A DNA stretch of 64,000 bases. Source: Streptomyces sp. 846.5. Lineage in GTDB: Bacteria; Actinomycetota; Actinomycetes; Streptomycetales; Streptomycetaceae. The DNA lies in NCBI RefSeq assembly GCF_004365705.1, contig NZ_SOBN01000002.1, positions 434,001 through 498,000 of the forward strand, read 5' to 3'. Below are positions 5,450-40,982 of this stretch, in pieces. The notes below the pieces were generated by a model. It worked only from the letters and a program-made list of their open reading frames with translations. It had not been told where the DNA came from and ran no database searches. Both the position numbers and the translations under genes were made by a program. The number at the start of each line of letters is the position of its first letter. The first letter of the stretch is position 1.

Positions 5450-6706
5450 GTGAAACGGCTGACAGCGATCGCGTCGGCGGCCCGGCACGCCCTCGTCCAG
5501 GTGCTGACCGGACCCGATCCGGCCCCGGCATGGCGCCGGCCCTCGCAGCAGCAGCGCCGGGCGGAGTACGCCGCGCTGGGCGCGGCGACGCTGGCGCTGT
5601 GCCTCGTCAATGCGACCCAGGTGAACCAGGCGGCCGCCGACGGCGCCCAGTCGCCGCCCGGCGCCTGGCAGGTGCTGCTCGCCATCGCGGCGGTGCTGCC
5701 GCTGCCGCTCGCGGTGACGTACCCGATGGCGGCCTGGCGGGTCGGATGGCTGGTCCTGCTGCTGTCGCCGCTGCTGCCCGCCGCCTGGTGGGGCGGCTGG
5801 CCGTGGGGGCCGCCGCAGGTGCTCGTGATGCTCGGGGTCTTCTGCCTGGCGGCGGTCCGGCAGCGGCGGGCGGCCGTGGGGTGGATGTGGTCGCTCACGC
5901 TCATCCCCTGGGTCGGGTGGCTGGTGAAGGACATTCCGAATCTTCACGGCCCGGCTGCCGCAACGGCGATCTTCACCGCCGTGGCGATCGCGGTGGACAG
6001 CGTCGGCTCCCGACTGCGCACCCAGCGCGCGCTGGCCGCGCAGACCGTCCGCACCGACACCGAACAGGCGCGGCGCGCGGTGCTCGAAGAGCGCACCCGG
6101 ATCGCCAGGGAGCTGCACGATGTGGTCGCCCATCACCTGTCGCTGATCGCCGTCCAGGCCGAGACCGCGCCCTATCGACTGGGCGAGCTGCCGGAATCAG
6201 TCCGCGCCGAGTTCAGCTCGATGAGCGAGGTGGCCCGCGAGGCGCTGACGGAGATGCGCCGGCTGCTCGGCGTGCTGCGCCAGGACCAGCCGGCCGGGCT
6301 CGCGCCGCAGCCGCAGCTGGCCGAACTGCCCACGCTCATCGACGCCGCCCGGCGCGCGGGCGTGGAGGTCGAACTGTCGGTGCCCGCCGAATTCGGCAAG
6401 GTGCCCGCCGGCATCGGGGTGTGCGCCTACCGGATCGTGCAGGAGTCGCTGTCCAACGCGAGCCGGCACGCCCCGGGCGCAGCGGTCACGGTGTCGGTGG
6501 ATCACGACGCACGCGCCGTCCAGCTCCGGGTCGCCAACGGCCCGGGCAGTGCCGCCGCCCGAGCGGGACGAGAGCGCGGATGCGGCCATGGCCTGAGCGG
6601 AATGCACGAGCGGGTAGCGCTGCTCGGCGGGTCGCTGTCGGCCGGACCGACAGCGGCCGGCGGCTTCCTGGTGTCCGCAGTGCTCCCACTGGGCGAGACC
6701 CCATGA
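5450..6706 (+). CDS. NarL/DesK-type sensor histidine kinase
   Basis: A 418-residue membrane sensor kinase. Four or five hydrophobic segments occupy about residues 35-190 with no large extracytoplasmic domain, so it probably senses membrane or exporter state. The HisKA_3 dimerisation motif RTRIARELHDVVAHHLSLI (about 208-226) contains the phospho-His. A shortened HATPase_c domain (YRIVQESLSNASRHA, then GHGLSGMHERVALLGG) ends the protein. GTG 5450 is chosen because a TACGCT -10-like hexamer lies seven bases before it; GTG 5444 is also possible. Its stop overlaps the regulator start (ATGA), so the pair is co-translated. Confidence 0.85.
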   Translation: MKRLTAIASAARHALVQVLTGPDPAPAWRRPSQQQRRAEYAALGAATLALCLVNATQVNQAAADGAQSPPGAWQVLLAIAAVLPLPLAVTYPMAAWRVGWLVLLLSPLLPAAWWGGWPWGPPQVLVMLGVFCLAAVRQRRAAVGWMWSLTLIPWVGWLVKDIPNLHGPAAATAIFTAVAIAVDSVGSRLRTQRALAAQTVRTDTEQARRAVLEERTRIARELHDVVAHHLSLIAVQAETAPYRLGELPESVRAEFSSMSEVAREALTEMRRLLGVLRQDQPAGLAPQPQLAELPTLIDAARRAGVEVELSVPAEFGKVPAGIGVCAYRIVQESLSNASRHAPGAAVTVSVDHDARAVQLRVANGPGSAAARAGRERGCGHGLSGMHERVALLGGSLSAGPTAAGGFLVSAVLPLGETP

Positions 6707-11987: not shown

Positions 11988-12017
11988 CGATCGTCCCTTC
12001 AATCCTCTGAGACGAGG

Positions 12018-12560
12018 TCAGACCCGGTCGAGCGGACGGTGGGGCTCGTCCGGGAGTTCCGCGGTGATCGTGTCGCCGGGGCGGACCACGCCGCCCGTCC
12101 GAACCACGCCCATGATTCCGGCCCGGCGCACGATGTTCCCGGCCTTGTCCCGGCCGACGACCTGCTTCAGCAGTCCGTCCTGGAAGGTGTCGATCTGCAG
12201 GCAGGGATTGCGCAGGCCGGTGACCTCCACGACGGCCTTGTCGCCGACACGCAGCAGGGTCCCGACGGGCAGGGCGAGCAGATCGATGCCGCTGGTGGTG
12301 ATGTTCTCGCCCAGATCGCCGGGCGTCACGTCGAACCCCTCCCCGCCGACCTCGGCGAAGAGTTCCTCGTGGATGAGGTGGACCTGGCGCAGGTTCGGCT
12401 GGGTGGGGTCCTGCGCGACACGCGAGCGGTGCTTCACCGTGACGCCGGCGTGAATGTCTCCCTCCACGCCGAGCCCGGCAAGCAGGGTGATGCTGGCCCG
12501 GTTGGGCTTGGTGAACGAATACTGCCCGTTGCTGCTGACCGCCGTTACTGCCCCGCCCAC
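12018..12560 (-). CDS. MOSC-domain protein
   Basis: A 180-residue single-domain MOSC protein. It carries GLGVEGDIHAGVTVKHR near the N-terminus, then GDLGENITTSGIDL and the Cys-containing VTGLRNPCLQID, the conserved Cys that in molybdenum-cofactor sulfurase C-terminal domains handles sulfur. Stand-alone MOSC proteins are thought to transfer sulfur or bind molybdopterin, but specific roles are mostly unknown. GTG 12560 is chosen because GGAGGG lies about eight bases upstream; a GTGGTG pair near 12594 is the alternative. The neighbouring nitronate monooxygenase gene is in the same direction, 30 bp downstream. Confidence 0.82.
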   Translation of the reverse strand: MGGAVTAVSSNGQYSFTKPNRASITLLAGLGVEGDIHAGVTVKHRSRVAQDPTQPNLRQVHLIHEELFAEVGGEGFDVTPGDLGENITTSGIDLLALPVGTLLRVGDKAVVEVTGLRNPCLQIDTFQDGLLKQVVGRDKAGNIVRRAGIMGVVRTGGVVRPGDTITAELPDEPHRPLDRV

Positions 12561-12616
12561 CAGTGGACCCTCCGCTCGGTAGTGATGGATCACCACGAGC
12601 CTAGTCCGCGGGTGCC

Positions 12617-12649
12617 GGGCGAGCGGACCGGGTGCTGGTCCGCTCGCCC
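12617..12649. terminator. 13-bp hairpin after the GH27 gene
   Basis: GGGCGAGCGGACC (12617-12629) pairs perfectly with 12637-12649 around a seven-base loop. It lies 15 bp beyond the stop of the leftward GH27 gene and before the MOSC start. No T-tract. Confidence 0.65.
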
Positions 12650-12663
12650 ACGACAGGGCGACG

Positions 12664-14436
12664 TCAGGCCTTCGTCCATTTCTGGTTGGAGCCGCCGTTG
12701 CAGGTCCAGAGTTCGACGCCGGTGCCGTTGGCGCTGGCGCCGCCGCCCTTGACGTCCAGGCACAGGCCGGACTGGACGCCGGTGATGGTGCCGTCGGCGT
12801 TGACGTTCCACTGCTGGTTGCTCTGGCCGTTGCAGGTGTACAGGTCGACGTTGGTCCCGGAGGTGGTGCCCTGGTTGTAGGCGTCCAGGCACAGGCCGAG
12901 CGAGCGCAGCGTCCCGCCGGAGTAGGTCCACTCCTGGTTGGGGCTGTGGTGGCAGTCCCAGATCTCCTGGAGGGTGCCCGGGGTGGTGTTGGAGTTGGGG
13001 TCGTCAAGGCAGCGTCCGGAGGCGGTGCTCACGTACTCGGTGGCGGTGCTGGTGCCGGGCGGGGTGCGCAGCAGCTGGACCGCTCCGGGGCCGAGGTTGA
13101 CGCTGTAGGTGCCGCTGATGGTGCCGATCGAGGAGCCGGTCCACAGGTCGGTGGCGGTCGGCGAGCCGGTGATCCCGGCGGCGGCCAGGTTGACGCTGAC
13201 GGTCTGGCTGCTGCTGCCGGAGTAGTTGAACAGCCCGATGATCACGCTGCCGTCCGACTCGGTCTTGCTGAACACCTGCTGGTTGCCGTTGCTGACGATC
13301 CGTGAGGCGTCGATGGCGTCCTGGTCCACGGCCAGCACGGCCGTGTTCTTGAGGTAGCCGAGGTCGGTGGCATCGAGGTGGGTCAGGTCGGTGCCCAGGA
13401 TCAGCGGGGAGGCGGCCATCGCCCAGAGGCTGAGCTGCGACTGCCGCTCCGGCGCGGTCAGCCCGTCGTTGGAGCCGTTGCCGACCTCGATCGAGTCGTA
13501 GTCGTTGAACGCCCCCGGGCCGCCGTAGGGCTGCCACGCCGCGACCTGGGCGTAGCGCTGCTGGATGTTGCCCCAGTCCGTCAGCGGAAAGCTGCTGCCG
13601 TTCGAGCCGCAGTAGCACTCGACGTCCCCGCCGGTGCGCCAGCCGTTGGAGTACTTCGCCCAGGTGCCCGCGCTGCCGATGGCGAGGTTGTTGGACAGCT
13701 CCAGGTGGATCGGGCGGCCGCTCTGCTGGAGCGCGGTCGACCAGGCCGTGACGTCGCCGACGTCGCCGGTCCCGACGCCGTCGATCTTGACGTAGTCGAC
13801 GCCCCAGGAGGCGAACTCATTGGCCCAGGAGTTGATGAACGCCTGCGCGCCGGGCTTGCTGTAGTCGATGCCGACCATGCCGCCGCAGTTGTAGTTGCTC
13901 TCGGAGCTCGTGGTGGCGATGTCGTCCGCGTGGTAACTCGTGCCCTGGATGGGGGTGTTCTGGGCGACGGCCTGCTTGGAGATGCCCGGGGTGACGTAGA
14001 TCCCGAACTTCAGCCCGTCGGCGTGCACATGGGCGGCGACCACGGCGATCCCGTCGGTGGAGCCCGAGGAGGGGAACTTGGTGGTGTCGGTCGCCCAGCG
14101 GCCGTACTGGTCCACCGCCGGGCCCTGGCTGCCGGGGCACTGGTAGTAGAAGTCGTCGATGTTGACGTACTGGTAGCCGATGGCCGCCAGCCCGCTGCTC
14201 TTCATGGCGTCGGCCTGGGCGTCGATCACGGCGGCGGTCGGCGCGTAGCGGACATAGCTCCAGCTGCTCCAGCCCAGCACCGGGGTCAGGCCGACGCCGT
14301 TGCTCTCGGCCTGGGCCTGCGGCATCGGCAGCAGCGCACCGGCCAGAGCCGCCGCGCCCGCGGTCAGCACGGCCACCAGCCCGCGGGCCCTTCGGCCGAC
14401 GCGCCTGGGGATTCGCCTGGGGATTCTTGAACGCAT
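12664..14436 (-). CDS. secreted GH27 glycosidase (alpha-galactosidase type) with C-terminal RICIN/CBM13
   Basis: A 590-residue secreted enzyme. The signal sequence (about 1-43) is Arg-rich (MRSRIPRRIPRRVGRRARG) and ends near AQAES; export by Tat is possible. The GH27 catalytic domain shows VLGWSSWSY, GYQYVNIDDFYY, the nucleophile Asp in GVDYVKIDGVG, and the probable acid/base Asp in GWRTGGDVECYC. A C-terminal RICIN-type beta-trefoil (about 465-590) has QEW, QQW and QKW repeats. Family members are alpha-galactosidases, but streptomycete GH27-CBM13 enzymes also include beta-L-arabinopyranosidases. ATG 14436 has GGAGA five to six bases upstream. It is divergent from a LAL regulator. Confidence 0.88.
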   Translation of the reverse strand: MRSRIPRRIPRRVGRRARGLVAVLTAGAAALAGALLPMPQAQAESNGVGLTPVLGWSSWSYVRYAPTAAVIDAQADAMKSSGLAAIGYQYVNIDDFYYQCPGSQGPAVDQYGRWATDTTKFPSSGSTDGIAVVAAHVHADGLKFGIYVTPGISKQAVAQNTPIQGTSYHADDIATTSSESNYNCGGMVGIDYSKPGAQAFINSWANEFASWGVDYVKIDGVGTGDVGDVTAWSTALQQSGRPIHLELSNNLAIGSAGTWAKYSNGWRTGGDVECYCGSNGSSFPLTDWGNIQQRYAQVAAWQPYGGPGAFNDYDSIEVGNGSNDGLTAPERQSQLSLWAMAASPLILGTDLTHLDATDLGYLKNTAVLAVDQDAIDASRIVSNGNQQVFSKTESDGSVIIGLFNYSGSSSQTVSVNLAAAGITGSPTATDLWTGSSIGTISGTYSVNLGPGAVQLLRTPPGTSTATEYVSTASGRCLDDPNSNTTPGTLQEIWDCHHSPNQEWTYSGGTLRSLGLCLDAYNQGTTSGTNVDLYTCNGQSNQQWNVNADGTITGVQSGLCLDVKGGGASANGTGVELWTCNGGSNQKWTKA

Positions 14437-14763
14437 GAGTGTCTCCGTCCTCGGTGTGCATGGGTGGGGGACATGCCGAGAGGAGCCTCTGGTCAGAGCA
14501 GCCGACCGGGGTCGGCGATGCTGCCCTGTCATGTGCGAGGCGACTGGAACTCAACCTCACAGCTGACGCAAAGTCAATATATGTTGCAGCATGGGCGAAC
14601 CGGCTCTTGGATTTGTTTGATTGTGGCCACCAGGGGGCTCGTCGCCCAGCCCTGGGGCTGACCCCGCCCCGGGGTCCGAAATGCGGGCGGACTCATGCAC
14701 GACATGTGAAAGTGTCACAATACCGGCCGGTATCAGCACTGTGGTCGGTTGAAGGGACGTCGT
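14437..14763. other. 327-bp divergent intergenic region between the GH27 and LAL genes
   Basis: No gene is seen. The segment holds an AT-rich patch (AATATATGTTG near 14574-14584) unusual for this DNA, which reads TATATT on the minus strand and could be a -10 box for the GH27 gene. Overlapping it upstream is GAACCGGCTC (14597-14606), one base from the LacI-type operator at 61114-61123. Two palindromes near 14705-14733 lie close to the LAL start and are listed separately. Confidence 0.5.
14705..14733. promoter_or_regulatory. adjacent TGTGA-N5-TCACA and ATACCGGCCGGTAT palindromes
   Basis: TGTGAAAGTGTCACA (14705-14719) has the half-sites of a CRP-type operator, but with a five- rather than six-base spacer. 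It is directly followed by the perfect 14-bp palindrome ATACCGGCCGGTAT (14720-14733). Both lie 30-60 bp upstream of the LAL regulator GTG at 14764, where a promoter would be, so two regulators may act here. Confidence 0.5.
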
Positions 14764-26396: not shown

Positions 26397-27632
26397 CTAA
26401 AGGGTGGAGGTTCCCGCCTGGTCCGCCGTTGTCCGGCGTCCCTTCGGGTGGGTTCCTGCTTCGCCGCGCTGTGCCGGGACAAGTCCCGGTCTTACCCGCG
26501 CTCCACAGGCTGAGACCGCAAGTCCTGCGGCCTTGGCGACGTTGACCGCCGCGTTCACGTCCCGGTCAAGGACTGCCCCGCACGCTCCGCACGTCCATTC
26601 CCGGACGTTGAGGGGCTTGGGGCCGTCCTTGACCCCGCACTGCGAGCACACCTGAGAGGTCGGCTCGAACCGTCCGATCCGTTTGAAGGTGCGGCCCATC
26701 TTGATGGCCTTGTACTCCAGCATGGTGACGAAGGCCGACCATCCGGCGTCGTGAACGGACTTGGCCATACGCGTACGGGCGAGGCCCTTGACCGCCAGAT
26801 CCTCAACGGCGACCGCTTGGTTCTCGCGGATCACCTTCGTTGAGAGCTGGTGGTGGAACTCGCGCCGCGCGTCGGCCACCCGGGCGTGCTGCCGGGCGAC
26901 CTTCAAGCGGGCCTTGTCGCGGTTGCTGCTGCCCTTCGCCTTGCGACTGAGGGACTGCTGCGCGCGCTTCAACTTCTTCTCGGCGCGGCGCAGGAACTTG
27001 GGGCTGTCGATCTTCGTGCCGTCGGAGAGGATCGCGAAGTGCGTCAGGCCGAGGTCGATTCCGACGGCGCCGGTCCTCTGTGGCAACAGGTCGGCTGCCG
27101 GGTCGGTCTCCACGACGAAGCTCGCGAAGTACCTCCCGGAAGCGTCCTTGACCACGGTGACGGTGGACGGCGTGGACGGGAGCGCCCGGGACCACTTCAC
27201 CGACACGTCACCGACCTTCGGCAGGCGCAGTTTTCCGCCCATGGTGATCTTCCATCCTGCGTTCGCGGTGAACCGGATCGACTGCCGGTTGTCGCGTCGG
27301 GACTTGAACCGGGGAGCGCCCATCTTCGGACGTTTGCCCTTGAGGCCGTCGAAGAAGTTCCGGTAGGAGGTCTCCAGGTCCCGGAGGGACTGTTGCAGCA
27401 CCACCGATGACACTTCCCCGAGCCAAGCGCGATCCGGGGTCTTCTTCGCCGCCGTCAGCCGCTTGGACAGATCGGCGGCGGTGACGAACGGCAGCCCAGC
27501 CGCGCGGGCTTCCTCGCGGACGCGAAGCGCGTCGTTGAAGACAACCCGGGCGCACCCGAACGCGCGGGCCAGCGACGAACACTGACTGGCGGTCGGGTAC
27601 ACGCGGAACGAGTACCTGAGCTGCATACCCAT
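26397..27632 (-). CDS. tnpB: IS605 TnpB RNA-guided nuclease
   Basis: A 411-residue TnpB. The RuvC-like catalytic residues are all present: Asp in AVGIDLGLTHF (about 192), Glu in VEDLAVKGLART (about 277) and Asp in DRDVNAAVN (about 353). The zinc ribbon has CSQCG and CGACG. The N-terminal region begins MQLRYSFRVYPT. TnpB proteins of this type cut DNA guided by an omega-RNA made from the right end of the element. Here that RNA would run leftward through about 26550-26385 and take its guide from minus-strand bases 26384 to about 26365. The protein looks intact. It is 20 bp from the divergent tnpA. Confidence 0.93.
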   Translation of the reverse strand: MGMQLRYSFRVYPTASQCSSLARAFGCARVVFNDALRVREEARAAGLPFVTAADLSKRLTAAKKTPDRAWLGEVSSVVLQQSLRDLETSYRNFFDGLKGKRPKMGAPRFKSRRDNRQSIRFTANAGWKITMGGKLRLPKVGDVSVKWSRALPSTPSTVTVVKDASGRYFASFVVETDPAADLLPQRTGAVGIDLGLTHFAILSDGTKIDSPKFLRRAEKKLKRAQQSLSRKAKGSSNRDKARLKVARQHARVADARREFHHQLSTKVIRENQAVAVEDLAVKGLARTRMAKSVHDAGWSAFVTMLEYKAIKMGRTFKRIGRFEPTSQVCSQCGVKDGPKPLNVREWTCGACGAVLDRDVNAAVNVAKAAGLAVSACGARVRPGLVPAQRGEAGTHPKGRRTTADQAGTSTL

Positions 27633-27652
27633 GATCGTACTACAGTTGGCTT

Positions 27653-28084
27653 ATGTCACCACGATGGAACCCAGATCCCGATGTACGCACCGGACGCCAT
27701 GTCGTCTACAACCTGCACGTCCACTTGGTTTTCGTCACCAAGTACCGGCGGAAAGCGTTCACCGACGCCATGCTGACGCGCTGCGAGGGGATCATGCGTG
27801 AGGTCTGCGCAGACTTCGAAGCCGAGTTGAAGCAGTTCAACGGCGAGCAGGATCACGTACACCTACTGGTCCACTACCCGCCGAAGGTCCAGCTGTCCAA
27901 GCTGGTCAACAGCTTGAAGGGCGTCAGCTCACGCCGCCTTCGCCAGGAGTACGACAGCCACGTCCGCCGGTACCTGTGGGGCGGACACTTCTGGTCCGGT
28001 TCCTACTTCGCTGGTTCCTGCGGCGGCGCACCGCTCACCGTCGTCCGCCAGTACATCGAGAACCAGCAGCGCCCCACGTCGTGA
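27653..28084 (+). CDS. tnpA: IS200-type HUH transposase TnpA (Y1)
   Basis: A 143-residue single-strand transposase. The metal-binding HUH motif is in QDHVHLLVHYPP (about residues 66-77), and the catalytic Tyr is in TVVRQYIENQQ (about 133). The fold-defining start VYNLHVHLVFVTKYRRKAF is intact. It cuts and joins element ends as single-stranded DNA at hairpins, matching the subterminal hairpins of this element. Both IS genes appear intact, so the element may still be active. Confidence 0.93.
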   Translation: MSPRWNPDPDVRTGRHVVYNLHVHLVFVTKYRRKAFTDAMLTRCEGIMREVCADFEAELKQFNGEQDHVHLLVHYPPKVQLSKLVNSLKGVSSRRLRQEYDSHVRRYLWGGHFWSGSYFAGSCGGAPLTVVRQYIENQQRPTS

Positions 28085-30553: not shown

Positions 30554-31825
30554 CTAGCCCGCGTCAGCTTCTCCACGGCTGAGGTCGGGCGCTGCCAGCG
30601 CCTTGAGCGCGTTCAGGTGGTCGGTCACGAGTTCTGCCTCGGTGCCGCTGGACGCCCGGGGGGAGGTCCAGGTGTGCTCCGGGCCGTCGATGGTCATCCA
30701 GTACGCGGTGCCGACATATCCACGGCTCGACTCATGCTCCCAGTGGCTCTCGAAGCGGTAGTCGCCGATACGGGCGTACGGGATGAACAGGCCGGTCTGC
30801 GACTGGAGAATCCTGATGCCCCGCGTCGTCAGGCCGAGCCCCTCCGGACGTCCGCCGATCATTCCGAAGGCGCACAGCCAGACGGCGAGCACCTCCTCCT
30901 GCGCCGGGTCGAGTGCCAGCAGCCGGACGAACTTCCGCATCCTCGCCGGAAGTTCACCCGCTGCCACGATCCGGAACCGGCGCGTGCCGGGCGACGACCG
31001 CAGCCGCTCCCGCACCAACGAGGGCAGCCCCGGCGGCAGTTGCGCGGGTGCCTCGGCCGGGGACGGGTGCGGGGAGGCCGGGGCGAGGTTCCGGGCCAGG
31101 CAGATGCGGTTGACCGAGCCCCGGCCGCGCAGTTCCGGCAGCGGGCGGGCCCGGGACGCCTGCACGGAACGGATGTGCCGGTAGAGGGTCTCCATGTCCA
31201 GGAGTTCCGGGCCACCCGGTAGGCCGTTGGTGAGAACGTCGACGAGGACCCCGGTGAACGCGGTGTAGGTCTCCCCCGGCGGGGCCATCGCCTGTCGGGT
31301 GGCCGCTGCGGCGGCGAGGACGCAGACGCCCTCGACAGCGGCGCCGTCGGCCAGCCCGGCCCCGGCCGACATGGAGCCGAGCGAGGCGCGCCCGGCCCAG
31401 CAGCAGTCCAGGACGACGATCTTGTTCCGGCAGCGAACCGACGGCAGCTCCAGGACCCCGCGCAGATCCTGGTAGCGCAAGGCGGTCGAGGGGCGCATCC
31501 CCCGGGAGTGCGGAAGGGCGAGGCAGAACTCGTCGAAGGCCTCCAGCAGCCCGTGGCCCGCGTAGTACACCAGCAGCGTTCCGGTGGTCCGTGCCGCCAC
31601 CTGCTCGACCACGTCGAGCACCATGGCGGAGCTGCCCGCTGCCTCCTCCGCCACCGTCACGCAGTTGTCGGGCGGCAGGCCCCAGACCCGCGGGTCGCAC
31701 AGGGCGTCAGCCAGGGCGACCAGGTTGTTCCGGACCGCGGGCAGCGCCTCCAGGTGCTGGTACCGGTGGACTCCGATGAGGACGGCATGCGACTGACCGG
31801 GGTCCGCGAGTGCCTGGCCGCTCAC
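30554..31825 (-). CDS. caspase-like (peptidase C14) protease
   Basis: A 423-residue protein. The N-terminal caspase fold (about 1-240) has HAVLIGVHRY, the catalytic His91 in LVYYAGHGLL, and the catalytic Cys142 in KIVVLDCCWAGRA. A linker with Pro/Ala runs to about 275. The C-terminal domain (about 290-410) is beta-rich (RGIRILQSQTGLFIPYARIG, DYRFESHW) and unrecognised; it may sense or bind a partner. Start GTG 31825 overlaps the EACC1 stop (GTGA), so the two are translated together. Bacterial caspases of this kind act as self-killing effectors released by an upstream sensor. The full dyad suggests an active enzyme. Confidence 0.9.
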   Translation of the reverse strand: MSGQALADPGQSHAVLIGVHRYQHLEALPAVRNNLVALADALCDPRVWGLPPDNCVTVAEEAAGSSAMVLDVVEQVAARTTGTLLVYYAGHGLLEAFDEFCLALPHSRGMRPSTALRYQDLRGVLELPSVRCRNKIVVLDCCWAGRASLGSMSAGAGLADGAAVEGVCVLAAAAATRQAMAPPGETYTAFTGVLVDVLTNGLPGGPELLDMETLYRHIRSVQASRARPLPELRGRGSVNRICLARNLAPASPHPSPAEAPAQLPPGLPSLVRERLRSSPGTRRFRIVAAGELPARMRKFVRLLALDPAQEEVLAVWLCAFGMIGGRPEGLGLTTRGIRILQSQTGLFIPYARIGDYRFESHWEHESSRGYVGTAYWMTIDGPEHTWTSPRASSGTEAELVTDHLNALKALAAPDLSRGEADAG

Positions 31826-32202
31826 TCCTCGCCGCCACCCGGCTCAGGCACGGCGGCAGGAGGGCCGAGGAGTTCGCCCGCCAGTCGGCGCACCGTCTCG
31901 TCGTCCGCCCCGCGGATCCGCACCGTGACGCCGTTGGCCTCCAGGTGGACCTCAGGCGGGCGGGACCGGGACGAGCGCCAGGTGGCGACCACCCCGACCA
32001 CGAGGCTGGCGGCGGCGATCGAATTGCTGATGACGACATTGACCAGGTCCAGGCCGCCGTCCATCGACCCGGGTTCCCGGGAACCGGCGGCCAGGGAGAA
32101 TTCCGCCTCGGAGCGCATGCCGGGGTCCGCCGCGAGCCATCTGTGCAGCGCAGCCGTGTCCGCTGCCGCGTCCTCCCCCAAAACCCGCACCAGGACCTGC
32201 AC
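31822..32202 (-). CDS. EACC1 (effector-associated constant component) protein
   Basis: A 126-residue protein starting VQVLVRVLGEDAAAD with ALHRWLAADPGMRSEAEFSL, then one hydrophobic stretch (LDLVNVVISNSIAAASLVV) and VEANGVTVRIRG-like strands ending in an acidic tail. This is the pattern of EACC1, a small component encoded next to effectors such as caspases in actinobacterial conflict systems described by the Aravind group. It is thought to link effector and sensor; no biochemical function is established. GTG 32202 has GGGGGAG just upstream. It overlaps the caspase start by four bases. The 32203-32421 intergenic region faces the Hsp70-dynamin operon. Confidence 0.82.
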   Translation of the reverse strand: MQVLVRVLGEDAAADTAALHRWLAADPGMRSEAEFSLAAGSREPGSMDGGLDLVNVVISNSIAAASLVVGVVATWRSSRSRPPEVHLEANGVTVRIRGADDETVRRLAGELLGPPAAVPEPGGGEE

Positions 32203-32421
32203 AGACCCTCCCCCGGCAATGCGCGGACCCATGGCGCCCTGGATATCTGAGGCACCGTCAACCACGATACGCGCAGCAGGGCCGCAGTCGTCCGGTGACA
32301 GGAAATCCGATCATGGCCGAAGGTGAATCTTCTTACCGGAACCGGATTCGCGGGGCAGCAGATGCGGCAGGATCAGTGCAACGTCCTTGGGACCGCAGCA
32401 GCCTCACCGGGGGGTAAGGCA
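32203..32421. promoter_or_regulatory. shared divergent promoter region of the two conflict-system operons
   Basis: A 219-bp segment separates EACC1 (leftward) from the Hsp70-like gene (rightward). I see no perfect palindrome and no strong sigma-HrdB-type hexamer pair, and no regulator gene is adjacent. Both operons must start here, so a single signal could control both. Confidence 0.4.
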
Positions 32422-34932
32422 ATGAGCGAAGCAATTGTGGCGATCGACTTCGGCACCTCGACCTCTTCCGCGGCCGTCGTCGCGGGCGGCGGCGACTTCA
32501 AACTGATCATGGAACGTGGCACCCATTCCTGGTCCTGGCCGTCCTCCGTCTATCTGCAGGGCGAGACACTGCTGGTGGGAACTCCGGCCGAGCGCCTCAA
32601 GCGTCTCTTCCCCGGGAACTACCGCACCGAATTCAAAAGGGACTTCGCCCAACGGGCCCCGGTCCATCTCGGCGGACGCCCTTTCAGCCCCACCGCGCTG
32701 GTCACCCGGGTCCTGGAGGCGCTGCGCAGCGAGGCCGGGAACGCTGCCACCAGGGCGGTGCTGACCGTCCCCTCGGACTACGCGGGCCCGCACGACCCGC
32801 GCTGGCAGGAGATGATCACCGCAGGCCGGGCAGCCGGATTCGAGGTCGTGGAACTGATCTACGAACCCGTGGCCGCGGCCCTGGAACCGCCCGCCGACGG
32901 ACCCTTCGCACCCGGGGACCTGGTGCTGGTCTACGACTTCGGCGGCGGAACCTTCGATGCGGCGCTGGTGCGGATCAACGACGGCTCGCAGGGGATGGGC
33001 CCCACCCTGCTCGGGCACCGGAGCCGTCCCGACATCGGCGGCATGGACATCGACCGCGACATCTTCACGTGGATCAAGGAGCACGGCCACGCCGACCTGG
33101 CCGACCTCGTCGACGACGCCGCGACGGCCGCGGACCAGGAGCAGCAGCAGGAGCAGAGACTCGCCGCCCAACGCGCCCGGATCGAACTCGGTTCGCTCTG
33201 CGTCCAGTTGAAGATCCAGCTGACCGAGCATCCGGTGGCCATGGAACTGTTCAAGGACCGCTACGAACTGGCCCTGGACCGGCCCACCTTCGACAAGCGG
33301 GCCCAGCCACTGATCGCCGAGACGATCGCCTGCTGCCTGGAACTCCTGGACGCGGCCGGTGTTTCGCCCGATCAGCTGGCGGGGGTGCTGCTCGTCGGCG
33401 GCAGCAGCCAGATGCCGCTGGTCACCGAGGCCCTGCGCAGGGCCTTCCCGGACCAGGACAGAGTGCGGATCTGCACCACCGCCGAACCCGAGTACGCCGT
33501 GGTGCGCGGCGCGGCCCGCTTCGCCGGCCTGGCCCGGCGCCGCTTCGCCTCGCAGTCGGGCCACCGCCCCCATGAGCGCGCGGTGCGCTGGACCCTGCCC
33601 GAGGGCTACGGGGAGCTCCTGCGGCATCGTGTCGGTGTCGGCGAGACCTACCGGGCCGGCATCGATCTGGCCGAGGTGCGGTTGGCCTCGGGTGCGGTGA
33701 TCGGGCTGCGCAGCGTGGAGCCGGGCACCGTGAAGGCCTGGCACGTGGGCCCGGGGGCGGAGGTCCACAGCGGCGACTGGCTGCTGACCGCGCAGACACT
33801 GTTCCGCCCCTGGCGCTCCGGCGTTCCGCAGCCGGTCGGGTCACCGGCGCTGTCCGACGGATCGCTCTTCGTCTCCTCCGGGTCCGGACGGGTGGAGGCC
33901 CGGGTCACGGCCACCGGCGACCTCCACTGGGCGGCCGAGGTCGGCGGAACGCTCTCCACCGGCCCCGTCGTCCGCGACGGCACGGTGTACGTCGGCGACG
34001 CCGAAGGCCGCTGCCATGCGCTCGACGCGGAGACCGGGGCGCCGCGGTGGTCCGCACCGTACCGGGCCGAGGGCGCTGTCTCCTGCCCGCCCGCGGTCTC
34101 CGGACAGCTGGTCTGCTTCGGCTCCGCCGACCGGCGGGTGCACATCCTGGACACGGCGACCGGCAGCGCGGTCCACCGAATCGACGCGGGCGACGCGGTT
34201 CTGTCCCTGGCACTCTCCGGCCGCCTGCTGCAGGTCGTCTCGGCACAGGGCAGGCTGACCGTCCGGGACGTCCAGGACAGCCGCCTGCTCTGGTCCGCTC
34301 CGCTGCCGCTGCACGGCCTGCCGGTGTCGGCAGACGACACCGTGCTCGCCTGCTACCCGGACGGCGAGATGGTCCGGCTGCGCATGGCGGACGGGGAGGA
34401 GCTCTGGCGGGCCCGCTACGGGCCCGCGCCGGGTCAGATCGAAGCGATGCGGCGCAACTGGATCCGCGGCGGGGCGTACCGGGCCACGGCGGCCGCGCCG
34501 ATCCTGGCCTGTGACGGAGCGGAGGTACCGGCGGAGCGCCGCCTGGTCTACCTGGCCGCACCGGACGGCTTCCTGACTGCCCGTACCCTCGCCGACCGGG
34601 AAGGCCGCTGGCAGGTCCGGCTGCCCGCAGCCGCGCTGAGCATGAGTGCCCGGGACGGCGTCCTGTACGTCGCCACGGCCGGTCCCGACCACGAAGTCCG
34701 GGCGTTCACCTCGGACGGACAGCCGACCGGCGCCCGGTACCGGACCTTCGGCCCGGTCGGCGCGGCGCCCGTCGCCGCGGACGGGGCGGTCGCCTTCCTC
34801 TCCGGCGACGGCACCCTCCACGCCCTCGCCGCCACGACCCTGCGCGGTCCCGCCCCGGTCGGCCCGGTCCCCCCGGTGAGCCGGGCGGCCCAGGTGCTCC
34901 CCGACGAGAACGGGGGCGCCCGCCGTGGCTGA
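32422..34932 (+). CDS. Hsp70-like ATPase fused to a PQQ-type beta-propeller
   Basis: An 836-residue protein. Residues 1-380 form an Hsp70/actin ATPase with AIDFGTSTSSAAVV (phosphate 1, about 7-20), VYDFGGGTFDAALV (phosphate 2, about 170-183) and VLLVGGSSQMPLVTEALRR (adenosine, about 322-340). The usual DnaK substrate-binding domain is missing. Instead a small beta segment (GVGETYRAGIDLAEVRL) leads to a PQQ/WD-like propeller (about 465-815) with blades such as GTVYVGDAEGRCHALDAETG and LVCFGSADRRVHILDTATG. The propeller may be the sensing or scaffold part. ATG 32422 follows GGGGGGTAAGGCA. Its last eight bases overlap the dynamin gene. Confidence 0.88.
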   Translation: MSEAIVAIDFGTSTSSAAVVAGGGDFKLIMERGTHSWSWPSSVYLQGETLLVGTPAERLKRLFPGNYRTEFKRDFAQRAPVHLGGRPFSPTALVTRVLEALRSEAGNAATRAVLTVPSDYAGPHDPRWQEMITAGRAAGFEVVELIYEPVAAALEPPADGPFAPGDLVLVYDFGGGTFDAALVRINDGSQGMGPTLLGHRSRPDIGGMDIDRDIFTWIKEHGHADLADLVDDAATAADQEQQQEQRLAAQRARIELGSLCVQLKIQLTEHPVAMELFKDRYELALDRPTFDKRAQPLIAETIACCLELLDAAGVSPDQLAGVLLVGGSSQMPLVTEALRRAFPDQDRVRICTTAEPEYAVVRGAARFAGLARRRFASQSGHRPHERAVRWTLPEGYGELLRHRVGVGETYRAGIDLAEVRLASGAVIGLRSVEPGTVKAWHVGPGAEVHSGDWLLTAQTLFRPWRSGVPQPVGSPALSDGSLFVSSGSGRVEARVTATGDLHWAAEVGGTLSTGPVVRDGTVYVGDAEGRCHALDAETGAPRWSAPYRAEGAVSCPPAVSGQLVCFGSADRRVHILDTATGSAVHRIDAGDAVLSLALSGRLLQVVSAQGRLTVRDVQDSRLLWSAPLPLHGLPVSADDTVLACYPDGEMVRLRMADGEELWRARYGPAPGQIEAMRRNWIRGGAYRATAAAPILACDGAEVPAERRLVYLAAPDGFLTARTLADREGRWQVRLPAAALSMSARDGVLYVATAGPDHEVRAFTSDGQPTGARYRTFGPVGAAPVAADGAVAFLSGDGTLHALAATTLRGPAPVGPVPPVSRAAQVLPDENGGARRG

Positions 34933-38519: not shown

Positions 38520-40982
38520 TCAGCTGCTGCTGAAGGCCTGCAGCTCCCACAGGGAGTAGCCGTACTGGGTGGCGCGCGCGGTACCGTTCATCCGCAGATA
38601 GCGGCCCGAACCGGTGACATTCAGCGTCTGGACCCCGCCGGTACCGGCCGTGGTGGAGTAGATCGTGGACCAGGTCGTCCCATCGTTGGAGGTCTGCAAC
38701 TGGAACGCCGACGCATACGCCGTCTCCCAGTTCAGAACCACCTGACAAATGCTCTGCACCGAACCCAGATCCACCTGCAACCACTGCGGATCCGAGAACG
38801 CACTCGACCAACGCGTACCCGTATTGCCGTCCACCGCGTTCTGCGCCGGGGTGCCCGCGTTCTCCGCCGAGGACGCCGTTGCCGTCTTGTTCAACGCGAC
38901 GTTCGTGGTCCCGCACGCACCGCCGCTGGTGGTTGCGGCATAAGCCTGCAGCTCCCACAGGGAGTAGCCGTACTGGGTGGCGCGTGCGGTGCCGTTCATC
39001 CGCAGATAGCGGCCCGAACCGGTGACGTTCAGCGTCTGGACCCCGCCGGTACCGGTCGTGGTGGAGTAGATCGTGGACCAGGTCGTCCCGTCGCTGGAGG
39101 TCTGCAACTGGAACGCCGTCGCATAAGCCGTCTCCCAGTTCAGGACCACCTGACAGATGCTCTGCACCGAACCCAGATCCACCTGCAACCACTGCGGATC
39201 CGAGAACGCACTCGACCAACGGGTACCGGTATTGCCGTCCACCGCGTTCTGCGCCGGGGTGCCCGCGTTCTCCGCCGAGGACGCCGTGGCGGTCTTGTTC
39301 AGGGCGATGTTGGTCGTTCCGCACCCGCCGCCGGCGGCGTTCACGACCCAGCTGAAGGCGGTCGATCCGACCGCCGCGGTGCTGTCGGTGGCGGTCACCG
39401 TCACGTTGGAGGTGCCCGCCGCGGTCGGGGTCCCGGAGATCAGGCCGGAGGTGGCGTTGATCGACAGCCCGGCGGGCAGTCCGGTGGCGGTATAGGTCAG
39501 CGTCTGGCCTGACGCCGAGTCAGTTGCGTGCACCTGCACGCTCGCTGCCGTGCCCACCGTCGAGATCTGGCTGCCGGGGCTCGTCACCGTCACCGTGTTG
39601 CCGGTGCCGCCGCTGGGCAGGGTCCACTGCTGCTGGGCGGAGTCGGTGCAGGTCTCGATGTCGAGCCGGGAGGCGGTGTTGCCGCCCGGATCGGTCAGGC
39701 ACAGCCCCGAACTCGGGTTCAACAGCTCGCCGTTGGCCTGGTGGGTCCAACCCTGGGCCGCGGTGCCGTTGCAGGGATACCAGTCGACGTTGGTGCCGCT
39801 GGTCGTCCCGGCGCTGACCACGTCCAGGCAGCCGCCCTGGACCCGGAAGGTGTTGTCGCTGTACGGCGACCACTGCTGGCCCGCGCTGCCGTCACAGCCG
39901 CTGACGGTGATCGGGTTGCCCTCCGTGTTGAGGGAGTTCTGGTTGGCCAGGCAGAGGCTGTTGATCCCCTTGACCGCGCCGGTCGCGGTGGCGGTCCCGG
40001 TGGGGGTGGAGTTGCCGCCCTGCTCGTAGACGGCCACGTAGCCCACGCTCATGGCCGCGCCCGAGGTCGTCGCCGCCGTGGGGGTCGCGGAGCCGTTGAC
40101 CCCGTCCGGGTAGTTGCCGCCCATCGCGAGGTCCCAGATGATGAAGAACCCGTGGTCGATGGCCTGCTGCCAGGCCGTGGTGCCCACCGAGGCCTCGGTG
40201 ATGGTGCTCTCCACCGTGCCGTCCATCAGGAACTGCAGGGTCTCGGCGCTGGTGTCGGTGCGGTCGATGATGACCGAGTAGGTGTGGTAGCCGGTCTGGC
40301 AGGTGGAGCCCGCGCCGGGGCAGGCGATCAGGCCGTGTCCGGGGCTGTTGGCCGAGTCGTGGAGGGTCTGCGAGGCCTGGTTCAGGCCGTTGACGTCCTC
40401 CATCATGTCGATCTCGCCGGACTGGGGCCAGCCGCCGCCGGCCCGCATCGGGGATCCGAGGGCCCAGAACGCCGGCCAGTAGCCCAGGCCGTTGGCGGGA
40501 TTGGGCTGCTGGATCGAGGCGGTCATCTCGAGCTTGCCGCCGGCCGGGGCCTGGAAGTCCTCGCGGGTGCTCTCCAGCCGTGCGGAGGTCCAGGTCCCGC
40601 CGTTGTTGATGGCCTTCAGGACGAGGTGGCCGTTGCCGTCCAGGTAGGAGTTGGCGGTCGAGCTGGTGGTCTGCTCGCTCTCCCCCGTCCCGTAGCCGGT
40701 GCCGATGTCGTAGAACCAGTTCGCCGACGACGGCGCGGAGCCGGCCGCCCCGGCGAAGTTGTCGCCGAACACGGTCGTCCAGCCGGACGGCGCCGGCGGC
40801 ACGGTGTCCGCCTGCGCCGCCGGTGCGGCGACCATCGTGGTGGCGACGGCGCCGGAGAGGCATCCGGCGATGAGTGCCGCCGTGGCCAGGATCGAGCGTC
40901 CTCGCGCCGGCGTCCTGGACGCCTTCTTCCGAGGTTCGCTTCGGCGGCCGACTCCCCGGCCGATACGCGGTATGACGAACAC
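38520..40982 (-). CDS. secreted GH16 glycosidase with RICIN, Ig-like and two discoidin domains
   Basis: An 820-residue secreted enzyme. The signal region (about 1-58) ends AAPAAQADT. The GH16 domain (about 62-325) has the catalytic ExDxxE in SGEIDMMEDVNG (about 186-197) and the LGYWPAFWALG strand. A RICIN-type trefoil (about 330-460) and an Ig-like He_PIG-type domain (about 465-550) follow, then two near-identical F5/8-type C (CBM32-like) domains. The GH16 subtype suggests an endo-beta-1,3(4)-glucanase. GTG 40982 is preceded by AAGGGAAGG. Promoter and operator are visible at 41105-41156. Confidence 0.9.
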   Translation of the reverse strand: MFVIPRIGRGVGRRSEPRKKASRTPARGRSILATAALIAGCLSGAVATTMVAAPAAQADTVPPAPSGWTTVFGDNFAGAAGSAPSSANWFYDIGTGYGTGESEQTTSSTANSYLDGNGHLVLKAINNGGTWTSARLESTREDFQAPAGGKLEMTASIQQPNPANGLGYWPAFWALGSPMRAGGGWPQSGEIDMMEDVNGLNQASQTLHDSANSPGHGLIACPGAGSTCQTGYHTYSVIIDRTDTSAETLQFLMDGTVESTITEASVGTTAWQQAIDHGFFIIWDLAMGGNYPDGVNGSATPTAATTSGAAMSVGYVAVYEQGGNSTPTGTATATGAVKGINSLCLANQNSLNTEGNPITVSGCDGSAGQQWSPYSDNTFRVQGGCLDVVSAGTTSGTNVDWYPCNGTAAQGWTHQANGELLNPSSGLCLTDPGGNTASRLDIETCTDSAQQQWTLPSGGTGNTVTVTSPGSQISTVGTAASVQVHATDSASGQTLTYTATGLPAGLSINATSGLISGTPTAAGTSNVTVTATDSTAAVGSTAFSWVVNAAGGGCGTTNIALNKTATASSAENAGTPAQNAVDGNTGTRWSSAFSDPQWLQVDLGSVQSICQVVLNWETAYATAFQLQTSSDGTTWSTIYSTTTGTGGVQTLNVTGSGRYLRMNGTARATQYGYSLWELQAYAATTSGGACGTTNVALNKTATASSAENAGTPAQNAVDGNTGTRWSSAFSDPQWLQVDLGSVQSICQVVLNWETAYASAFQLQTSNDGTTWSTIYSTTAGTGGVQTLNVTGSGRYLRMNGTARATQYGYSLWELQAFSSS
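38536..39320. repeat. 408-bp tandem duplication of the discoidin domain
   Basis: Two units with a 408-bp offset (38536 and 38944 start the same GCCTGCAGCTCCCAC) are almost identical over about 375 bp. They differ at scattered bases only, while their linkers differ more. The offset is 136 codons, so the reading frame is kept. The high DNA identity suggests recent duplication or gene conversion, and the copies could recombine. Confidence 0.9.

Follow-up and report, generated by a model that had tools for sequence, protein, structure and literature searches.

The 64,000-nucleotide stretch of Streptomyces sp. 846.5 considered here (contig NZ_SOBN01000002.1, positions 434,001 to 498,000; hereafter the window, in whose numbering coordinates are given) encodes an Hsp70-like protein that keeps the nucleotide-binding domain of Hsp70 and carries other folds behind it, followed directly by two dynamin-like GTPases. 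The anatomy of the protein, its operon, the recurrence of that operon and the exchange of its C-terminal modules were computed, and from them we infer an ATP-driven switch, not a folding chaperone, that would link recognition by a variable module to membrane remodelling by the dynamin pair, a reading to which we give even weight. The Hsp70 field treats the nucleotide and substrate domains as one machine. If the reading holds, a protein that retains the nucleotide domain but exchanges its substrate domain would make the Hsp70 ATP cycle a possible general switch, and bacterial dynamins, whose regulation is poorly understood, would gain a candidate controller in a three-gene operon. Recurrence across actinobacteria, a cyanobacterial plasmid, two metagenome-assembled genomes (MAGs) of gammaproteobacterial symbionts and a Clostridia MAG takes the arrangement beyond a single-genome curiosity.

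The gene is one open reading frame (ORF) of 836 aa on the forward strand, uninterrupted by stops from ATG 32422 to TGA 34932, the extent originally predicted; an alternative in-frame GTG at 32323, 5' of this ATG, would add 33 codons. Could a sequencing or gene-model error have joined separate Hsp70 and propeller genes? The original prediction itself allowed for a faulty gene model, and no point in favour of any such artefact was found: third-position GC is even over the three parts of the gene (0.88, 0.92 and 0.91), the remaining two frames contain stops at the junction, and independent relatives share the order nucleotide domain, barrel, propeller. The chance of a fusion artefact is negligible, and it can be set aside. 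Hydropathy gives no transmembrane stretch (maximum 1.48). An AlphaFold2 (AF2) model of the whole protein, made from 23 alignment rows, has a mean predicted local distance difference test score (pLDDT) of 77 and a predicted template modelling score (pTM) of 0.53.

The first domain is that of an Hsp70. The Pfam HSP70 profile matches with E 2.4e-34, its best stretch covering profile positions 100-374 of 599, so that the substrate-domain part of the profile is left unmatched. Alignment with the separate DnaK that the genome also encodes shows that the nucleotide- and catalytic-site residues D9, K72, E148, D172 and T177 are kept, and that the 836-aa protein has no counterpart to the linker, substrate domain or lid of DnaK. 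Ten-residue pLDDT means run from 72 to 97 across the domain, and VIA-align, covering residues 2-424 of the whole-protein model, superposes it on DnaK 4b9q with Z 41.1 and a root-mean-square deviation (rmsd) of 2.2 over 348 residues. The original prediction had named both the nucleotide motifs and the missing substrate domain and lid, and both are borne out. Membership in the DnaK chaperones is rejected on the latter ground: the nucleotide-binding fold and the catalytic-site residues are shared with them, but a barrel and a propeller here replace the linker, peptide-binding domain and lid. An ordinary DnaK-type chaperone with the propeller as its client-binding surface would explain the retained catalytic residues, yet the missing linker, substrate domain and lid, the presence of a regular DnaK in the genome and the placement of the barrel proteins outside the DnaK branch (below) make it very improbable.

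The C-terminal half had been read as a propeller of the pyrroloquinoline quinone (PQQ) type. The propeller stands, but residues 372-469 contain a separate conserved barrel domain that had been overlooked. Folded alone with three relatives, this segment reaches pLDDT 86 in AF2, and ten-residue means in the whole-protein model are 80-91 at residues 391-460. Foldseek matches the barrel model to biotin carboxyl carrier protein and lipoyl domains (E 1.7e-4, TMt 0.87), and its top 20 PDB matches are all biotin carrier or lipoyl domains or enzymes containing them. VIA-align superposes the model on all 71 residues of 5gua with Z 12.3 and rmsd 1.2, the best rows lying at Z 12-13. Sequence profiles agree weakly (Biotin_lipoyl_2 E 0.05, Biotin_lipoyl E 0.14, HlyD_3 E 0.15). 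Relatives are 31-42% identical to the window protein over the barrel, and the part C-terminal of it is not alike. The model fold is thus that of the biotinyl/lipoyl carrier domains, from which the segment differs in its marginal profile matches and in the cofactor-attachment lysine: the 33 distinct sequences of the barrel family have no conserved lysine column, which argues for a structural and not a carrier role. As modelled, residues 384-459 are a non-carrier domain with the barrel-sandwich hybrid fold.

Behind the barrel, residues 469-806 are predicted to form a PQQ_2-type propeller, readable as eight blades. PQQ_2 (PF13360) matches in three stretches with E 1.3e-45, and eight blade-like repeats can be read in the sequence over these residues. 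A repeat motif, picked after the sequence had been read, occurs 5 times against 0.42 in shuffles, none of 2000 shuffles scoring as high. Propeller strands are also visible in the AF2 model, with ten-residue pLDDT means of 66-86 over residues 471-620 and 30-73 over residues 621-800. The PQQ-type propeller of the original prediction is therefore upheld by profile, blades and model, and the model and structural comparison it proposed return the Hsp70 nucleotide fold along with blade strands that are of modest confidence past residue 620. The PQQ_2 match is shared with BamB- and AfsK-type propellers, although the NCBIfam BamB and AfsK matches are both under their cut-offs and the propeller here shares one polypeptide with an Hsp70 nucleotide domain and, by hydropathy, with no transmembrane stretch. 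Scores with PQQ dehydrogenase profiles fall far under cut-off, and judged by sequence a PQQ-dependent enzyme is unlikely.

Table 1. Features of the Hsp70-like gene, the dynamin operon and the divergent gene pair, in window coordinates.
Feature	Coordinates	Strand	Basis
Hsp70 nucleotide-binding domain, residues 1-372	32422-33537	+	Pfam HSP70; alignment with own DnaK; fold match Z 41
Biotinyl/lipoyl-like (barrel-sandwich hybrid) domain, residues 384-459	33571-33798	+	AF2; Foldseek; VIA-align; family alignment; lysine count
PQQ_2/BamB-type beta-propeller (predicted), residues 469-806, eight readable blades	33826-34839	+	PF13360; AF2 strands; repeat reading
C-terminal tail, residues 807-836, probably disordered	34840-34929	+	Ten-residue mean pLDDT 27-37 for 811-836
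Dynamin-like GTPase A (dynA), 639 aa	34925-36844	+	Dynamin_N E 1.3e-18; IniA 6j72; PADLOC LeoA
Dynamin-like GTPase B (dynB), 539 aa	36841-38460	+	Dynamin_N E 2.6e-14; family profile against structures
EACC1 membrane protein	31822-32265	-	PF19953 E 4.3e-21; hydropathy peak 2.01
EACC1-associated caspase-like peptidase, 423 aa	30554-31825	-	NF047832 E 5.2e-65; PF00656 E 4.8e-8
Divergent intergenic stretch between EACC1 and the Hsp70-like gene, 156 bp	32266-32421	.	Sequence

The Hsp70-like gene is tightly coupled to its neighbours: the GTG start of dynamin A falls within its last codons, the genes for dynamins A and B overlap by ATGA, and dynamin GTPase motifs are present in both. IniA is the nearest solved structure to dynamin A (6j72, E 2.9e-27, residues 20-503). 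Among the PADLOC models of the Eleos system, dynamin A matches both LeoA (E 5.8e-23) and LeoBC broadly, whereas the best LeoA stretch of dynamin B is limited to residues 48-95, its P-loop region. The family profile of dynamin B matches the GTPase region of 5owv, of Nostoc BDLP 2j68 and of IniA 6j72. The mycobacterial IniA/IniC operon is linked to cell-envelope stress in the portion of PMC5760070 available. As in that pair, the dynamin genes here lie side by side, with A matching IniA; unlike it, they share an operon with an Hsp70, and no IniR relative was found in the window. IniR relatives occur in 37 of the 63 regions compared, with E no higher than 1e-60 in 33 of these.

Relatives of dynamin B at E ≤ 1e-25 were present in 10 of 391 genomes sampled from the order and 51 of 394 from the class, two being in both, and neighbourhoods of up to about 20 kb, shorter at contig ends, were covered for all 59 genomes. 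An Hsp70-like nucleotide-domain protein without a detectable substrate domain, meaning one without a blastp match (E ≤ 1e-3) to the substrate domain of the own DnaK, was found in 48 of these neighbourhoods. Eight DnaK-type matches had been excluded before the count, seven by a substrate-domain match and one, end-truncated, judged by score. The 48 genomes span 12 of 14 family codes, and the same profiles found no such gene in 40 control stretches (19.9 kb each, at round coordinates, from 21 genomes, 17 of these among the 59). The median distance is 1.7 kb, and in 18 cases the Hsp70-like gene lies less than 200 bp from a dynamin ORF; three of the zero distances are overlapping ORFs on opposite strands. 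The nearest Hsp70-like gene is on the strand of the dynamin in 19. Gene overlap and linkage together support the tie to the two downstream dynamins that had been suggested from the window alone.

Other genes recur less often. A GrpE-like gene, at 25.9 bits against a Pfam cut-off of 25.8, has relatives in 3 of the 63 regions, and its presence beside such operons is consistent with a nucleotide cycle that operates; the C39-type peptidase has relatives in 6. In one genome (G092, L065 10611-12000) a C39-type peptidase and a GrpE-like gene lie between the two dynamins of the operon, whose Hsp70 has no C-terminal module. In Actinospica (stretch L039) a gene for PycTM, a Pycsar effector, is directly upstream of the dynamin pair (5523-6125, E 7.4e-15). 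On the minus strand there, at 11991-14609, an 872-aa protein adjoining the Hsp70 has a CPxC motif, a P-loop-like stretch and no Pfam match; from a reading of its sequence we would guess that it may be a DO-GTPase.

The linkage reaches plasmids and distant lineages. On the Anabaena plasmid pANA01, two dynamins are found with a C39-type peptidase and with an Hsp70 in which little follows the nucleotide domain. The actinobacterial Rhodococcus plasmid pRWAY01 encodes two dynamin-type proteins together with a C39 peptidase, and its Hsp70 finishes in a transmembrane segment. In two MAGs of gammaproteobacterial Lamellibrachia symbionts an Hsp70 nucleotide-domain protein precedes two dynamins, and the one scanned has a beta-helix after the nucleotide domain (Beta_helix E 3e-75). 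Near a dynamin of a Clostridia MAG lie two Hsp70-like genes whose products carry Sel1-like repeats, read by eye. A tblastn search of plasmids gave one record for the Hsp70 and 11 for dynB. Neither the propeller nor the whole protein found a match in viral contigs, and a single-protein search of genome contigs with the Hsp70-like protein found no related loci.

What varies from locus to locus is the C-terminal module. Proteins with the nucleotide domain followed by the barrel occur in genome G106 (four genes in one stretch), in Actinospica (G044), in G314, in Dactylosporangium and in Frankia sp. R82, as well as in 27 genomes of family f20, to which Frankia sp. R82 seems to belong. The window protein matches 4 of 391 genomes of the order sample at E ≤ 1e-36, none of the matches in the other three extending beyond residue 509, and 30 of 394 genomes of the class sample at E ≤ 1e-34, 27 of them in f20; some class-sample matches reach the propeller (to residue 765 in G559). 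A second protein with the exact order nucleotide domain, barrel and PQQ propeller was found in neither sample, and among the 63 regions a phmmer query with the propeller matched the window alone. Pfam finds a WD40 C-terminus in all four scanned proteins of f20 and Frankia (three from f20 plus that of Frankia R82), in Actinospica and in one G106 protein, and weak propeller signals in two further G106 proteins and G314. The Dactylosporangium barrel protein has a transmembrane end read by eye, Pfam being empty after its Hsp70 part. Elsewhere, Hsp70-like proteins end in WD40, a beta-helix, Sel1-like repeats or a Vgb-like propeller preceded by a transmembrane stretch, and some have no module at all. 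Five or six SPDG-type repeats are present in 19 of the 26 listed distinct barrel proteins and none in the window protein, which is the sole one of the 26 with more than one PQQ-type motif. In a tree of the nucleotide domain alone, made by a quick method without bootstrap, 11 barrel proteins including that of the window form one group (Shimodaira-Hasegawa-like approximate likelihood ratio test 99), and this group falls outside the DnaK-containing branch. Together with the shared front half, the tree suggests that a PQQ propeller has here replaced a WD40 propeller.

Genome G106 has two more tandem barrel-type Hsp70 ORFs (L063 16123-18426 and L038 862-2823), on the strand opposite to two complete Hsp70-dynamin operons; read by eye, the former has degenerate nucleotide motifs, and the latter seems to stop just after the barrel. 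The f20 stretches of Frankia type (L209-L218) combine a barrel-WD40 Hsp70 and recurring neighbours with no dynamins in the stretch. Two-component genes and MscL are among these neighbours in the two stretches scanned, and the front half may here be put to a second use.

How might such a protein work? Under attack on the membrane or envelope, a protein or envelope ligand would appear, and the C-terminal module, here the PQQ-type propeller, would recognise it. The barrel would relay the signal to or from the nucleotide domain, standing in for the DnaK linker and substrate domain, and the ATP or ADP state would then license both dynamins to assemble on the cytoplasmic membrane, which they would tether, seal or remodel. 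Envelope or membrane damage is the most likely trigger, given that the dynamin relatives IniA and IniC belong to an envelope-stress operon. Relatives that pair the same kind of motor and dynamins with other end domains suggest that a sensor for disturbances of the membrane or cell envelope can be exchanged, and judged by sequence and model a role for the propeller protein as sensor or scaffold for the dynamins is reasonable.

Could the protein instead act after the dynamins? Hsp70s act as disassembly ATPases, and ATP could be spent on pulling dynamin oligomers apart while the propeller clamps the dynamins, much as Hsc70 uncoats clathrin. The shared operon, the conserved linkage and the GrpE-like partner in some operons would fit such recycling. 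However, the C-terminal module is entirely different from one locus to the next although the dynamins remain recognisably similar, and conservation would be expected of a clamp that grips a conserved partner. The presence of E144 where DnaK has the Arg that docks J-domains also speaks against it, and we hold recycling to be doubtful.

Several observations weigh against a dynamin-controlling switch as well. W128 and E144 occupy the positions equivalent to DnaK R151 and R167, residues that serve in domain coupling and J-protein docking, so the switch may cycle differently from DnaK. Confidence in the model is modest for the domain arrangement (pTM 0.53) and for the second half of the propeller (pLDDT 30-73 at residues 621-800). 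On the tree the dynamin-linked Hsp70-like proteins do not form a single clade: linkage changes five times, at least three of the changes being forced by well-supported branches. In 10 f20 (Frankia-type) stretches no called gene matches the dynamins of the window, and barrel-domain Hsp70s without nearby dynamins imply that the front half can serve another role. The nearest Hsp70-like gene is on the opposite strand from the dynamin in 29 of 48 neighbourhoods, and 11 of the 59 have no such Hsp70 (L067, L068, L226, L227, L269, L272 and L278-L282), several of these stretches being cut by contig ends; L067 is an 8.8-kb contig, and the Hsp70-like gene of G049 (L068) lies about 11 kb off, beyond the stretch. 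Many of the 59 genomes are closely related, so the counts are not independent.

With these points in view, the ATP-driven switch may belong to a distinct bacterial class of Hsp70-like proteins in which the peptide-binding domain is swapped for interchangeable modules and the ATP state commands a dynamin pair. The case for a new class is plausible, and we put it forward tentatively, leaning somewhat against it. The modules that might, with the same reserve, be interchangeable in this class are a PQQ or WD40 propeller, a beta-helix, Sel1 repeats and a transmembrane receptor. Its logic could, by an analogy no firmer than the class itself, resemble that of nucleotide-binding leucine-rich repeat (NLR) receptors: a variable sensor, an NTPase switch and a membrane effector, here built from Hsp70 and dynamin.

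Some of this is already known. Hsp70-type genes adjoin dynamins in cyanobacteria (the 'chaperone group' of dynamins, PMC5827413), and a dnaK-like gene lies beside iniR in M. smegmatis (PMC5760070). These loci share with the window an Hsp70-type gene next to dynamin-type genes; the propeller, the biotinyl-like domain and the C-terminal exchange are not described in the portions of the two papers available. The GAP1-N2 GTPase systems of actinobacteria likewise combine a substrate-domain-less HSP70, GrpE and paired GTPases (Kaur et al. 2020, PMC7159879). As far as the available portion of that paper goes, they use DO-GTPases with GAP1 and FNIII proteins, whereas the GTPases here match Dynamin_N, and the word dynamin is absent from its main text. 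The gene linkage of Hsp70 and dynamin is thus known, and the architecture and module exchange were not found in print: no paper turned up on the order nucleotide domain, barrel and propeller or on module exchange beside dynamins, in a search that judged most papers by title and the start of the abstract and covered few subscription papers.

Upstream of the operon, the EACC1 gene precedes its caspase-like partner, and about 200 residues C-terminal of the caspase domain have no Pfam match. In the portion of Kaur et al. (2020, PMC7159879) available, EACC1 and caspase form a two-gene predicted conflict system. The pair here is alike in that EACC1 comes 5' of the EACC1-type caspase and has a membrane segment by hydropathy; it differs in that no Pfam domain was found after the caspase and that it adjoins an Hsp70-dynamin operon. 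Could the whole locus be a defence system, in which an infection is detected at the membrane by EACC1 and the caspase, and the Hsp70-dynamin machinery, cleaved or set free by them, then damages that membrane? The predicted conflict role (PMC7159879, as far as available) would suit this, as would the position, divergently beside the operon, of the single EACC1 match that the 9-Mb genome contains, the match of dynamin A to the PADLOC LeoA and LeoBC models, the PycTM effector gene adjoining the Actinospica copy and the existence of plasmid copies. However, relatives of EACC1 and the caspase occur in one of the 63 regions, the window itself; the best LeoA stretch of dynamin B is limited to residues 48-95; and IniA and IniC are described as envelope-stress genes in the available portion of PMC5760070. 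A defence role is unlikely in our estimate. EACC1-caspase as a constant operon partner is rejected on the count of one region in 63, and the pair, not seen in the other 62 regions, is treated as a possible local add-on: it may be a membrane sensor and protease that share the divergent promoter region with the operon.

Two further features flank these genes. About 2.5 kb from the caspase gene lies an IS605-type element (26397-28084) with a divergent IS200/IS605 transposase at 27653-28084 (NF033573 E 8e-47) and TnpB/OrfB_IS605 at 26397-27632. Just downstream of the operon, on the minus strand at 38520-40982, is a gene for a lectin-type protein with ricin-B, a putative Ig and two F5/8-type C domains. 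The two F5/8 domains sit on 300-bp direct repeats that are 96% identical and 408 bp apart from start to start, which looks like a recent internal duplication.

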